Shown one piece after another: positions 7,423 to 12,452 of a stretch of DNA of 64,000 nucleotides. The first letter of the stretch is position 1. Every line of letters begins with the position of its first letter. The stretch comes from Thermococcus gammatolerans EJ3. GTDB taxonomy: Archaea; Methanobacteriota_B; Thermococci; Thermococcales; Thermococcaceae. The stretch lies in assembly GCF_000022365.1 (NCBI RefSeq), contig NC_012804.1, positions 744,001 to 808,000 of the forward strand. Reading direction: 5' to 3'. Made by a program: the position numbers and the translations under genes. The notes beneath the pieces are model-generated. The model was not told the DNA's origin. It saw only the letters and a program-made list of their open reading frames with translations, and did not search any database.

Positions 7423-7851
7423 TCAGTCCTTCCAGATGTAGAACCTTATCTCGCATGGGAAGTATTCCTCCGGAACCGGCGTCCAGTAGTTGGCCCAGTA
7501 GTTGACGGGTTCGAGCGGTCCTTCGTGGGTGATCACCTGATAACCTGCCACATCGGGGGGTTTGTTAAAACACACTAGGGCTAGCTGAGCTTTTCTGACA
7601 GATGCCTTGAGCGCCCAGATTTTGTACTCCACCTTGTACGTTCCATCTCCGTTATCCACAAGGTGCGCCTCTATTTTCACATCGCCGTAGTCTGCGGTGG
7701 CGTTCTTGAAAATCAGCGGATCGAGGACGAGCTGGTTGTAGTAGGGGACGTTCCTGGTGGTCCCCCGGAGGTAGTGCACGCTGATACCGATAACTATCAG
7801 GACAGCAACGATGATCAGGAGGTACTCAACGGCGGACTGCCCCTTCCTCAA
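7423..7851 (-). CDS. Class III signal peptide (pilin-like) protein
   Basis: A 142-residue surface protein with a class III signal peptide: a short basic N-terminus, then KGQSAVEYLL and a hydrophobic helix (IIVAVLIVIGISV). This is the QXSXEXXXL pattern processed by EppA-type prepilin peptidase, with cleavage expected between Gly4 and Gln5. The rest is a beta-rich outside domain with aromatic residues near the C-terminus. A GTG at 7860 is in frame, but GGGTGGTTGCA immediately precedes the TTG at 7851 and gives the usual short leader. It is probably an adhesive pilus subunit; no other pilus gene is in the window. Confidence 0.82.
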   Translation of the reverse strand: MRKGQSAVEYLLIIVAVLIVIGISVHYLRGTTRNVPYYNQLVLDPLIFKNATADYGDVKIEAHLVDNGDGTYKVEYKIWALKASVRKAQLALVCFNKPPDVAGYQVITHEGPLEPVNYWANYWTPVPEEYFPCEIRFYIWKD

Positions 7852-7875
7852 TGCAACCACCCATCTAGACCTGCG

Positions 7876-8263: not shown

Positions 8264-8465
8264 AAGCAACTCTTTTTGCTTCGTTCTTGAATTGGAAGAA
8301 TTAGGGAGATAACTGAGATTATTGCTTACGTGTGCGGGAAGATCAATCATATCTATTCGGTGTTCCATTTATCTAAAAGCTCGCTTCCTGTCTCATCAAA
8401 GACGTTGCATCCTGCGCAACTGTTATTAAGAGTCACGACTTAACTATCAGCTGGGGTGTAATTCC
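8264..8465. other. Intergenic region with promoter of the receptor kinase gene
   Basis: About 200 AT-rich bases. A possible box A (GTTATTAAGAG, about 8421-8431) and GGGGTGT just before the ATG at 8466 serve the kinase gene. I see no small gene or structured RNA here. Confidence 0.4.
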
Positions 8466-11400
8466 ATGCGGAGAATACTCACTTTCTTCTGGATACTCTT
8501 ACTACTTGTTGGGGCGTTAATTCCAGTTGAAAAAGTGAGCGCTGAAGAGCAATCATACTGGGTCAAGACTTACGGCGGCAAATATGATGATTGGGCTACT
8601 GCGGTTGCCATCGCTGACAACGGGGACGTTATAGTGGCAGGATACACTTACAGCTTTGGTGCTGGAGGGAAAGACGTTTGGGTTCTCAGGCTTGACGAGA
8701 ATGGTAATGTAAAGTGGCAGAAGACTTACGGTGGAAAATACGATGATGGAGCTAGTGCGGTTGCTATTGCCCCAAACGGTGATATTATATTGGTAGGATA
8801 CACTAAAAGCTTCGGCGCTGGTGGTTATGACGTTTGGGTTCTCAGATTGGATGAGAATGGGAACGTGAAATGGCAAAAAACCTACGGCGGGAGCAATTGG
8901 GATGAGGCTCACGCGGTTGCCATCGCTGACAACGGGGACATTATTGTTACGGGTTCTCCTTTCACGATACGGCTTGATGCTAACGGAAACGTGATCTGGA
9001 CAAAAGACGTGGGCGGTAACGCGGTTGCCATCGCTGACAACGGGGACATTATTGTAGCAGGCAGTTATGGTGACGACGTTTGGGTTCTCAGATTGGATGA
9101 GAATGGGAACGTGAAATGGCAAAAAACCTACGGCGGGAGCAATTGGGATGAGGCTCACGCGGTTGCCATCGCTGACAACGGGGACATTATTGTAGCAGGC
9201 AGGACTTACGGCTTCGGCGCTGGTGGTGATGACTTTTGGGTTCTCCGCTTGGACGAGAATGGGAACGTTAAATGGCAAAAAACCTATGGCGGGAGCGGTA
9301 GTGATTGGGCTCGCGCGGTTGCCATTGCACCAAACGGTGATATTATAGTGGCAGGTTACACTTACAGCTTCGGCGCTGGTAGTGAGGATGTTTGGGTTCT
9401 TAGTTTGGACGAGAATGGGAACGTTAAATGGCAGAAAACATATGGAGGAAGCTCCTATGATTATGCTTACGCGGTTGCCATTGCGGATAATGGGGACATT
9501 ATAGTGGCAGGCTATACGAGAAGCTTCGGCGCTGGCTATAAAGATGTTTGGGTTCTCAGGCTCCCTTCATGGGGGTCAATTGTGGGTTTTTCAAAAGATT
9601 CCAATGGTTTTGCTAATGAACCAAGTATTCAGATAACAGACTCTAATGCTAAAGTATCAGATTCTGAAGCGTGGACAATGGACTCTGAGGCCTTGGAGTG
9701 GAGTTCTACTGCCACTATCACCACAGTGGTGAGTGCTGGAATTCTTGAGATTTTTTCAAATCCGGGTGGAGCCAAAGTGTATATTGATAACGAATACCAA
9801 GGTCTCACACCACTTACAGTAGTTGCAAAGTCTGGAACCTATACAGTGAAGATTATCAAGGCAAACTACAACGGTTACGAAACTACGGTAACAGTGGCTC
9901 CCGGAGAAGTAGAAGTAATCGAGGCAAATCTTACCCAGCCTCCTGGGACGCTTGAGATCTCCTCAAGTCCTTCTGGAGCTAAAGTTTACATTAACGGAAC
10001 ATACAAGGGAGTAACCCCATTAACTTTAACGATGGAGCCCGATACTTATGTTGTGACACTGGTCAAAGAGGGGTATAAGGAGTACTCAAAGACAGTTGTT
10101 GTGTATCCTGGCGGTACTACTGAGGTGTATGCCTTCCTAGAAATTGCACCTGCCCTTCTTAAGGTTGAATCCAATCCCTCAGAAGCAGAAGTTTACATCG
10201 ATGGGACTTACATCGGAGTCACGCCTGTTGGGAATTATGAGCTTCAGCCAGGGACTTATAAGGTAAAACTAGTCAAGTATGGATATCAGAATTACACAAC
10301 AACAATAACTCTCAAGGCAGGCGAGAATAGAACTCTGAAAGTTACTTTGACCCCGAACTATGCCCACCTGACTATTAATTCTGAGCCTCAAAGCGCAGAG
10401 GTCTACGTTAATGGGACTTACAAAGGTGTGACACCTTTGACTCTTGAGTTGCTAACAGGAAACTACTCTTTAAAGCTCACTAAGGAAGGTTATGAGAATT
10501 ATACTGCAATGGTTGAAGTCAAACCAGGAGAAACTAAAACAGTCTCAGCGACGTTAACGCCTGCTTATGGTTTCTTGAACGTTGATAGTGCGCCTTCTGG
10601 GGCAGAAGTTTACATTAACAGGACTTACATTGGAACAACGCCATTGGAAAACTACAAACTTCCTCCTGGCAAGTACACTATCACAATTAAAAAAGAAGGT
10701 TATGAAGAGTACACAAAGAGTGTGAACATTATTTCGGGTAAAGCAACAACTTTAAGCGCTTCGTTAACGGTTATTCCACAGCCAAGCTCAAGCACAACAA
10801 CCATGACAACCTCGACTCAAGCGGCGACCACTCCTAGCTCAACTTCTGAGTCAAAATCCCAATCAACTACCACAACTCCTTCGTCAACCTCAACAAAATC
10901 TTCCACTACATCACGGCCAATAAGCACTACAACTAAAGCATCTTCTTCAGATCTCTTTCCTTCATCTCCTTCTAAAACGGAAGAAGATTCTGGCGGTTTA
11001 AGCTTCAGCCTCCGCCTCATACTAGGTGTATTGATAGGGTTAATTATCATTAGCAAGATTGCAACAAAGAACAAAGGCGGGAAAAACAAACTACTCACTT
11101 CACCAAGAGAAGAAAAACCAGCTCAAACCCCTGTAAAATCCAAATCTCCAACTCCCGTGAAAGGGCAGAAGCAAGAATCAATCCGAGAAACTATCCCTAG
11201 CTTCCCGCCAGAGCTCTTAGACAAGTACGAGCCTCTAGAATTCCTTGGAGAGGGTGGTTTTGCCAAAGTCTTTAAAGCCAAACGTAAGAAAGACGGTAAA
11301 ATTGTCGCTATCAAAATCCCGCGCATCGACGAGAAGACGAGCTCACTCTTTTTAAAAGAAATTGCCGCCTGGTACAACCTTAATCATCCAAACATTGTCA

Positions 11401-12344
11401 GGCTTTACAAAGCAGACATTCTCCCAATCCCATACCTAGAAATGGAGTACGTTGAAGGCGTAAACCTCAACGGGAAGACTATCAGAGACTTAGACAAGTA
11501 TCCAAAGCCAGTAGATGAAAAGAAAGCCCTGCAACTTATCAGGGGTATTGCGGAAGGCCTGAAGTATGCACACTCCAAGGGGATCTACCACAACGACTTG
11601 AAACCCCTCAATGTGCTCTTGAAAAGTGACTTGACACCAAAGATTACGGACTGGGGTTTGGCAAAGATCAGCGCGAGGAGTTCCCTCTCAACGCACTCTG
11701 GCTACTCACCACTTTATGCTGCACCAGAACAGCTTGATGAGAGCTTGTACGGAACGCCAGACCACAGGACAGACATTTACCAGCTTGGAGTCATCCTTTA
11801 CGAACTGTTGACCGGGAAGCTACCTTATGAGGGCTACTCGCCTGGGGCGGTGATAGGCAAGATACTAGCTGAGAACGTGAAACCACTCCCTCCTTCGAAG
11901 ATAAACCCGGCCTTGGCGAAGTATGACGGTATTTTCGAGAGACTCTTGGCGAAGAGGAAGGAGGATCGCTACCAGAGTGTTGAGGAGTTCTTAGCAGCAC
12001 TAGAGATTCTTAGAAAGTTGGAGTGGGAGCTTAAGGAACTGAAAAAGACGAAGAGGAGTCTCAAAAGGAGCAAATCTATGTGGGAAATAAAGATGCTTAG
12101 GCGGGAGGCTGTTGAGAAGACTGCTAGGATAGCAGTATTGAGTGCTCGGCTTAATGATAAGGTTGGGTTGTTGAATGCTTTGGAGGATTTGAAGGTTTAC
12201 ACGCGGGAGAATTTGGATGACTTGTTGAATGCGATAAATCAGGTGGAGGTGCGGTTAAAGGAAGGGATCCCTGTTAGTGATGATTTGATTGAGCGGCTTG
12301 AGGTGTTGTTGCACAGGATCCAAAGGGAGAATGAGATATCTTAA
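8466..12344 (+). CDS. Receptor-like Ser/Thr protein kinase: beta-propeller, PEGA repeats, TM, kinase
   Basis: A 1292-residue single-span membrane protein. A signal peptide ends near residue 27 (KVSA). Residues 28-365 hold repeats of the SBBP/delta-60 type, each with WQKTYGGS, AVAIADNGDIIVAG and DVWVLRLDENGN, expected to form a beta-propeller. Five PEGA domains start near 425, 495, 563, 632 and 701. A Ser/Thr-rich stalk (about 775-845) leads to a membrane helix at 849-866. The cytoplasmic kinase has LGEGGFAKV at 927-935, VAIK with Lys950, HNDLKP with Asp1044, DWG with Asp1062 and APE at 1086-1088. An approximately 140-residue charged helical tail follows. The catalytic Lys and Asp residues are present; HRD and DFG are changed to HND and DWG. 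Third-position use is more AT-rich than in its neighbours. Sensing of an outside ligand or cell-surface state is inferred. Confidence 0.9.
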   Translation: MRRILTFFWILLLLVGALIPVEKVSAEEQSYWVKTYGGKYDDWATAVAIADNGDVIVAGYTYSFGAGGKDVWVLRLDENGNVKWQKTYGGKYDDGASAVAIAPNGDIILVGYTKSFGAGGYDVWVLRLDENGNVKWQKTYGGSNWDEAHAVAIADNGDIIVTGSPFTIRLDANGNVIWTKDVGGNAVAIADNGDIIVAGSYGDDVWVLRLDENGNVKWQKTYGGSNWDEAHAVAIADNGDIIVAGRTYGFGAGGDDFWVLRLDENGNVKWQKTYGGSGSDWARAVAIAPNGDIIVAGYTYSFGAGSEDVWVLSLDENGNVKWQKTYGGSSYDYAYAVAIADNGDIIVAGYTRSFGAGYKDVWVLRLPSWGSIVGFSKDSNGFANEPSIQITDSNAKVSDSEAWTMDSEALEWSSTATITTVVSAGILEIFSNPGGAKVYIDNEYQGLTPLTVVAKSGTYTVKIIKANYNGYETTVTVAPGEVEVIEANLTQPPGTLEISSSPSGAKVYINGTYKGVTPLTLTMEPDTYVVTLVKEGYKEYSKTVVVYPGGTTEVYAFLEIAPALLKVESNPSEAEVYIDGTYIGVTPVGNYELQPGTYKVKLVKYGYQNYTTTITLKAGENRTLKVTLTPNYAHLTINSEPQSAEVYVNGTYKGVTPLTLELLTGNYSLKLTKEGYENYTAMVEVKPGETKTVSATLTPAYGFLNVDSAPSGAEVYINRTYIGTTPLENYKLPPGKYTITIKKEGYEEYTKSVNIISGKATTLSASLTVIPQPSSSTTTMTTSTQAATTPSSTSESKSQSTTTTPSSTSTKSSTTSRPISTTTKASSSDLFPSSPSKTEEDSGGLSFSLRLILGVLIGLIIISKIATKNKGGKNKLLTSPREEKPAQTPVKSKSPTPVKGQKQESIRETIPSFPPELLDKYEPLEFLGEGGFAKVFKAKRKKDGKIVAIKIPRIDEKTSSLFLKEIAAWYNLNHPNIVRLYKADILPIPYLEMEYVEGVNLNGKTIRDLDKYPKPVDEKKALQLIRGIAEGLKYAHSKGIYHNDLKPLNVLLKSDLTPKITDWGLAKISARSSLSTHSGYSPLYAAPEQLDESLYGTPDHRTDIYQLGVILYELLTGKLPYEGYSPGAVIGKILAENVKPLPPSKINPALAKYDGIFERLLAKRKEDRYQSVEEFLAALEILRKLEWELKELKKTKRSLKRSKSMWEIKMLRREAVEKTARIAVLSARLNDKVGLLNALEDLKVYTRENLDDLLNAINQVEVRLKEGIPVSDDLIERLEVLLHRIQRENEIS
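8829..8947 (+). repeat. 119-bp direct repeat, copy 1 (propeller module)
   Basis: This stretch is identical, as far as I can read it, to 9075-9193. It encodes one propeller module boundary within the receptor kinase. Nucleotide identity beyond protein conservation points to recent duplication or gene conversion. Confidence 0.85.
9075..9193 (+). repeat. 119-bp direct repeat, copy 2 (propeller module)
   Basis: Second copy of the 119-bp repeat at 8829-8947. A shorter part of the same module (GCGGTTGCCATCGCTGACAA and onward) recurs at 9021-9063, between the two copies. Confidence 0.85.
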
Positions 12345-12359
12345 GAGCACCGACCACGG

Positions 12360-12378
12360 ATTCCTTTTTCTTTTTACT
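12360..12378 (+). terminator. T-rich terminator after the kinase gene
   Basis: Runs of five T residues (CCTTTTTCTTTTTAC) follow the kinase stop by about 20 bases, the usual form of intrinsic terminator in Thermococcales. Confidence 0.5.
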
Positions 12379-12432
12379 CGGGATTGAACGGGTAGCATAG
12401 ACTGAGTCCTCTTGAAAAGAGAGGCTTGAAAA

Positions 12433-12452
12433 GAAAGTAAGAAAAATTATGG
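12433..12452 (-). terminator. T-rich terminator after the M42 peptidase gene
   Basis: On the minus strand AATTTTTCTTACTTTCTTTT follows the stop of the peptidase gene, facing the terminator of the kinase gene. Confidence 0.45.

Follow-up and report, generated by a model that had tools for sequence, protein, structure and literature searches.

A propeller-PEGA receptor-like kinase of Thermococcus gammatolerans and its probable link to an ESCRT-type membrane machine

What does an archaeon do with a kinase built like a cell-surface receptor, and to which machinery is it coupled? The question is raised by a gene at positions 8466-12344 of a 64,000-nucleotide stretch (the window) of the Thermococcus gammatolerans EJ3 chromosome. 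This chromosome, published in PMC2718504, is a single contig of 2,045,438 bp, in which the window covers positions 744001-808000. The product is probably a receptor-like Ser/Thr kinase with a single membrane pass, from the family found alongside ESCRT-III/Vps4 loci (ESCRT, endosomal sorting complex required for transport); it is an orphan copy that would act on an ESCRT-type membrane machine, with a PP2C-type phosphatase opposing it. The link to these loci is the most informative fact about the gene and was not seen in a sequence-only reading of the window, which was also silent on the C-terminal domain (CTD, residues 1181-1292) and on five paralogues in the same chromosome. The gene is organized as follows.

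8466..12344, + strand: whole gene, receptor-like protein with propeller, PEGA domains, transmembrane (TM) helix, kinase and CTD; complete open reading frame (ORF) with ATG start, 1292 amino acids
8466..8543, + strand: signal peptide or signal anchor, residues 1-26 (hydropathy)
8553..9590, + strand: seven-unit beta-propeller of the delta-60/SBBP type, residues 30-375 (NCBIfam and repeat units)
9738..10775, + strand: five PEGA domains, residues ~425-770 (Pfam)
10776..10991, + strand: Ser/Thr-rich stalk, residues 771-842 (composition; S+T = 63% over 771-840)
11001..11063, + strand: single TM helix, residues 846-866 (hydropathy; positive side inward)
11220..12005, + strand: Hanks-type kinase domain, residues 919-1180 (Pfam and PDB match)
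11313-11315, 11589-11597, 11649-11657 and 11721-11729, + strand: kinase motifs K950, HND, DWG and APE, respectively
12006..12341, + strand: conserved five-helix CTD, residues 1181-1292 (profile and AlphaFold2 model)

Relatives of the kinase in ESCRT-type loci

This chromosome also encodes, on its minus strand, five further Hanks kinases that share the kinase and CTD half; they lie in one ESCRT-type locus (897-943 kb), about 143-188 kb from the window gene. The closest paralogue is 61% identical over residues 562-1289, and its gene is directly followed by one for a Snf7-like protein and then by one for a Vps4-like protein. The locus comprises two Vps4-like AAA proteins, three Snf7-like proteins, a PP2C, a TIR protein, a pentapeptide-repeat ion channel and STAND-like ATPases, together with several propeller or PEGA proteins that carry no kinase. 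Between the two Vps4 genes there is also a frame of about 3044 amino acids (L038:10540-17970 and the start of L039), whose product contains propellers of the delta-60 and PQQ types and at least seven PEGA domains, with no kinase of its own.

Both Vps4-like proteins (L038:4413-5564 and L039:2643-3854) display a single AAA domain (PF00004, 4e-40 and 6e-38) and a Vps4_C tail (1e-8). For their N-terminal region of about 80 residues, no Pfam match to the MIT domain was obtained up to an E-value of 10. The three Snf7-like proteins align with one another as an ESCRT-III-like set. In the AlphaFold2 model of the one encoded beside the paralogue and the Vps4-type ATPase gene (L038:5566-6132), helices 9-51 and 54-108 correspond to the alpha1-alpha2 hairpin, with a predicted local distance difference test (pLDDT) score of 85-94 in much of the hairpin and 70 overall. 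Besides CdvB2, CHMP1B, CHMP2A-CHMP3 and Asgard ESCRT-IIIB, its Foldseek list also contains BAR-domain proteins and designed helical ones, while a profile of the Snf7-like alignment retrieved nothing from the PDB (best E 2.6). The support for these proteins as ESCRT-III is cumulative, not decisive.

The arrangement recurs in other genomes (sets with one genome per species, in which several relatives are contigs of metagenome-assembled genomes with doubtful labels). The order kinase, Snf7-like protein and Vps4-like protein is found in the source genome (G000), G029 and L137. The nearest kinases, 75-82% identical over kinase and CTD, lie inside the ESCRT loci of other genomes, and the gene of the relative is located immediately upstream of Vps4 in G018, G081 and G089, or between ESCRT-III and Vps4 in L133 and L145. 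L133 carries an 'Archaeoglobus' label, which is doubtful given the 94-96% identity of its DNA to a Thermococci contig, and it was not used to judge the spread beyond Thermococcales. Better evidence for that spread is provided by Methanosarcina sp. KYL-1 (L140) and allied contigs, where a relative with 62% identity is encoded beside the same ESCRT genes. A separate observation concerns the protein encoded at L039:3858-4985, which combines pentapeptide repeats with a two-TM ion-channel domain at its C-terminus (PF07885); several ESCRT loci, including those of G029 and G045, keep its gene next to Vps4 or the kinase.

The kinase–ESCRT link itself is already known. Makarova et al. 2024 (PMC10936438) described membrane Ser/Thr kinases (STKs) and a phosphatase (STP) as companions of the 'Main' euryarchaeal ESCRT loci, including those of Thermococcales. 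The Main-clade STKs resemble the window protein in having a kinase, a TM helix, a repeat-rich ectodomain and a small helical C-terminal domain, and the genes next to relatives of the window kinase likewise code for ESCRT-III, Vps4 and a phosphatase of the PP2C type. However, Ig-like repeats were described for the Main-clade proteins, whereas the window protein, in which no Ig model was matched among its Pfam domains, carries a seven-unit propeller and five PEGA domains; PEGA is listed in a figure legend of the same paper. In addition, the Main-clade genes lie inside ESCRT loci and the window gene outside. In the literature searched, which included few subscription papers, so that each may have been published, four points were not found: the propeller-plus-PEGA build, the swapping of ectodomains, the presence of the CTD in ESCRT-locus proteins of the TIR and TPR types, and the macro domain that two relatives carry.

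Co-occurrence across 94 Thermococcaceae genomes supports the association. A CTD match, practically always in a kinase, is present in 38 of 38 genomes with a locus-type Vps4 and in 9 of the 56 without it, the other 47 having none (Fisher p 9e-18, a value overstated by the relatedness of the genomes). When only good genomes are counted, the figures are 32/32 versus 5/42 (p 1e-15, again overstated by relatedness). Among the 94 genomes, all 30 with a close homologue of the Snf7-like protein contain a CTD match.

Several observations weigh against assigning the window kinase to an ESCRT-type machine. The gene lies outside the ESCRT locus, with no ESCRT gene adjoining it. Snf7 is the top Pfam match for two of the three Snf7-like proteins, but both scores, 16.6 bits for L038:5566-6132 and 17.5 bits for the other, fall below the threshold of 27.3. 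The top Foldseek match of L038:5566-6132, CdvB of S. islandicus (9s9k, Foldseek probability 0.98), is weak, with an E-value of 0.083. Finally, five good genomes (G020, G034, G056, G057 and G075) show a CTD match and no locus-type Vps4, although the match is weak in G034 (E 8e-9) and corresponds to a 142-amino-acid ORF in G075; CTD proteins may therefore act outside an ESCRT setting.

Build, active site and position of the window copy

The propeller, the five PEGA domains and the single TM helix that had been read from the sequence were confirmed. PEGA was matched in five stretches (PF08308, E 5e-89) and the delta_60 repeats scored above the NCBIfam cut-off (80.2 versus 76.5). The AVAIAxNGD cores of the seven propeller units start at residues 46, 98, 150, 186, 232, 284 and 336, two of the units being short. 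The seventh unit has no fourth strand; as YWVKTYGG at the N-terminus (31-38) resembles the missing one, the propeller is probably a seven-bladed ring closed by an N-terminal 'velcro' strand. All eight N-x-S/T sequons of the ectodomain lie at 488-718, inside or beside the PEGA domains.

Only two hydrophobic segments are found in the protein, at residues 1-25 and 846-866, and the charges immediately flanking the TM helix are +6/-2 on the inner side and +1/-4 on the outer side. According to the positive-inside rule, the kinase half is thus predicted to be cytoplasmic, and the earlier assignment of an exported sensor and an internal kinase is supported. The exported propeller-PEGA arm would sense a surface or extracellular feature, and the TM helix would pass the signal inward, probably by clustering.

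The kinase domain was matched at residues 921-1128 (Pkinase, E 9.7e-44, 150 bits versus a cut-off of 31.7), with Mycobacterium tuberculosis PknB as its best PDB match (E 4.6e-39). The protein resembles bacterial PknB/StkP in its single-pass topology, with a Hanks kinase inside and a repeat ectodomain outside. It differs from them in its non-RD and DWG motifs, its additional CTD and a host without peptidoglycan. Membership of the PASTA/PknB family was rejected: the PASTA-kinase model reached 199.6 bits against an NCBIfam cut-off of 450, and no PASTA domain was found with Pfam.

Lys950, Asp1044 and Asp1062 had been noted as being in place, and indeed the whole catalytic set is there (K950, E965, D1044, K1046, N1049, D1062, APE at 1086-1088 and D1103). 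It had also been judged that HND instead of HRD and DWG instead of DFG were unusual but not fatal, and this judgement was right. DWG is a family trait, present in 45 of 47 aligned kinases (one has DFG and one has lost the motif). The HRD arginine is missing in all 18 rows of the clade of the window protein (clade support 100/98), which shows HLD in its Thermococcales members, HHD in the Methanosarcina group and HND in the window protein, a singleton variant among the aligned kinases. Outside the clade, HRD is found in all rows but two, one a diverged HGN copy and the other without a readable motif. Neither oddity therefore argues against activity, and a degenerate or dead kinase was rejected, the catalytic residues being complete. 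DWG is native to CK2 alpha, a constitutively active kinase in which it disfavours the inactive DFG-out state (PMC9608649), although CK2, a soluble enzyme of another kinase group, shares only this motif with the window kinase.

Several predicted Ser/Thr kinases of T. gammatolerans were seen by mass spectrometry in its 2009 proteome paper, with very few phosphopeptides. Tandem double-kinase proteins were also observed among the relatives (L024:220-2670 and L019:1489-3669); the first kinase copy of L024 has HGN for HRD and no intact DWG or DFG, appearing as a pseudokinase-like domain fused to an active-looking kinase. In general, non-RD kinases do not need an activation-loop phosphate. The motifs of the window kinase thus predict an enzyme active without activation-loop phosphorylation, and its gating would lie in clustering, docking or a phosphatase.

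The window copy was inserted where it now stands.

8301..12441: insert of about 4.14 kb; the corresponding site of G020 lacks it, the flanks there being separated by 12 other bases

The flanks of the empty site in G020 are 94.7% and 89.7% identical to the window DNA, and the insert has a GC content of 42-51% versus 54-60% in the nearest flanking genes. No target-site duplication and no exact repeat of nine or more bases was found at the insertion ends. The order helicase, small membrane gene and M42 peptidase is kept in 22 of 24 related loci, and in all 24 the M42 gene is without a kinase beside it (1.5 kb viewed on each side). Next to the insertion, and kept in G020, window positions 7423-7860 (- strand) encode a 145-amino-acid protein with a class III-type signal or pilin-like N-terminal start. 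As the window copy lies outside and its paralogues and nearest relatives inside ESCRT loci, it belongs to the ESCRT-locus family as a relocated relative and not as a member of the locus.

A recent insertion into a site still empty in G020, the lower GC content and the singleton HND variant would all suit a relic or decoy that moved with its domains intact and became uncoupled from the ESCRT machine. This is nonetheless unlikely in view of the 1292 open codons, the retention of every catalytic residue and the conservation of kinase and CTD. In the kinases with the same domain order (the G029 orphan L177:9038-12808, L133 and L145), the kinase is 86% identical to that of the window protein, the CTD 66-70% and the propeller 46-64%, with four or two PEGA stretches detected by Pfam versus five. 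Moreover, orphan copies recur: two comparable propeller-PEGA kinases of G029 are encoded away from the ESCRT locus of that genome.

The C-terminal domain as a candidate docking module

The AlphaFold2 model of the CTD is a five-helix bundle without strands (pLDDT 91). A likeness to PCI/winged-helix folds, as described in PMC10936438, was not recovered by Foldseek, where the model had no significant match in the PDB and no PCI or winged-helix structure among the top ranks. The CTD profile matches the kinases of the locus at E-values of 1e-18 to 1e-38, and the window CTD is 55% identical to that of the in-locus paralogue.

The domain is not confined to kinases. The kinase-CTD profile also matches residues 173-246 of the locus TIR protein (E 6.7e-15), a 259-amino-acid product (L039:9402-10181, G000:C1 ~920.4-921.2 kb) whose C-terminal half is the CTD; it may give the ESCRT-type machine an NAD-linked input. 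Furthermore, blastp places the CTD at the end of two TPR-repeat proteins (L141:7261-8238 and L144:7262-8281), whose genes separate w611 from the kinase in Methanosarcinales-type ESCRT loci of two euryarchaeal contigs. Because the CTD is common to kinase, TIR and TPR proteins and co-occurs with ESCRT loci, it may be a docking module for several inputs of one ESCRT-type machine. It would dock the kinase either to the machine or to a partner common to CTD proteins; the kinase would then phosphorylate a part or regulator of the machine, and the locus PP2C would reverse the modification.

The same set of kinase, TIR protein, STAND-like ATPases and AAA proteins could be taken for an antiviral defence island, and PADLOC does return mad6 and PD-T4-6 for the kinase domain, ThsB for the TIR protein and PDC-S27 for an ATPase. 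Such a role is very unlikely: the core partners are ESCRT-like proteins and PP2C and form no described defence set, and the window copy stands among housekeeping genes. Membership of the MADS6/PD-T4-6 defence kinases was rejected, since the matches span the generic kinase domain only and the full-length model was not reached (140.8 bits for the MAD6 equivalog versus a cut-off of 460).

Exchange of the sensor and its significance

While the kinase and CTD remain constant, with kinase halves about 85-99% identical, the ectodomain has been exchanged by recombination in relatives, as shown by sequence comparison. In L133 and L145 the DNA is 94-96% identical on both sides, and from residue ~540 onward, as far as the kinase gene extends, the proteins are 97-100% identical; the propellers, by contrast, show only 24-53% identity. 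Among 44 complete-frame kinases, pairs with 85-92% identity in the kinase half often have 22-40% identity and unrelated lengths in the N-terminal part (the pairs are not independent); G022 and G044, for instance, share 90% and 24%, respectively. The best matches of the window propeller are a stand-alone propeller protein encoded at 1.117 Mb in the same genome (65%) and the propellers of diverse kinases. A kinase type of 667 amino acids is exempt from this swapping, being 96-100% identical throughout.

It had been suggested that the repeats bind the S-layer, glycans or a cell-surface protein. The data neither support nor refute such ligands, although the variability of the ectodomain makes one structural ligand shared by all members unlikely. 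A different explanation holds that the ectodomains are polymorphic surfaces for contact, kin or non-self recognition, through which vesicles, viruses or other cells, whether like or unlike, trigger an ESCRT output (vesicle, nanotube, fusion or fission). It would account for the sharp replacement of the sensor cassette in near-identical loci, the many pairs with similar kinases and dissimilar N-terminal parts, the propeller-only and PEGA-only proteins encoded nearby and the CTD of the TIR protein. It is, however, somewhat unlikely, as the 667-amino-acid locus kinases keep a fully conserved N-terminal part and sensor diversity could likewise reflect adaptation to different nutrients or mineral surfaces.

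The L133 and L145 kinases (L133:5563-9345 and L145:4780-8598) add to the propeller-PEGA build a cytoplasmic macro domain between the TM helix and the kinase (PF01661, 2.6e-19 in L133), which the window protein does not have. Together with the TIR-CTD protein, this domain points tentatively to a role of ESCRT loci in ADP-ribose signalling.

T. gammatolerans is a known producer of vesicles. In a 2021 review, Thermococcales were said to lack ESCRT-III, and unpublished Vps4 disruptions in T. kodakarensis without a vesicle phenotype were cited (PMC10117752), whereas the 2024 survey found ESCRT loci in some Thermococcales (PMC10936438). In the present comparison, G023, presumed to be T. kodakarensis KOD1, contains only a solo diverged Vps4-like gene, with no CTD kinase and no Snf7-like protein, and T. 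gammatolerans EJ3 has both a CTD kinase and an ESCRT-III-like protein. This suggests that the Vps4 knock-out was made in a species without the locus system, and the negative results may therefore not bear on the species that carry it.

The receptor half of the window kinase would provide a handle on what switches an ESCRT-type machine, and the swapped sensors suggest the recognition of something variable. A bolder and rather doubtful possibility is that Thermococcales have a recognition system in which swappable ectodomains, a constant kinase and a helical docking domain, common to TIR and TPR proteins and joined in some relatives by an ADP-ribose-type macro domain, are coupled to the ESCRT machine, so that contact would gate budding or scission. 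If true, it would be a prokaryotic counterpart of the receptor-kinase control of ESCRT, in which the gating contact is made with a partner, a virus or a vesicle.

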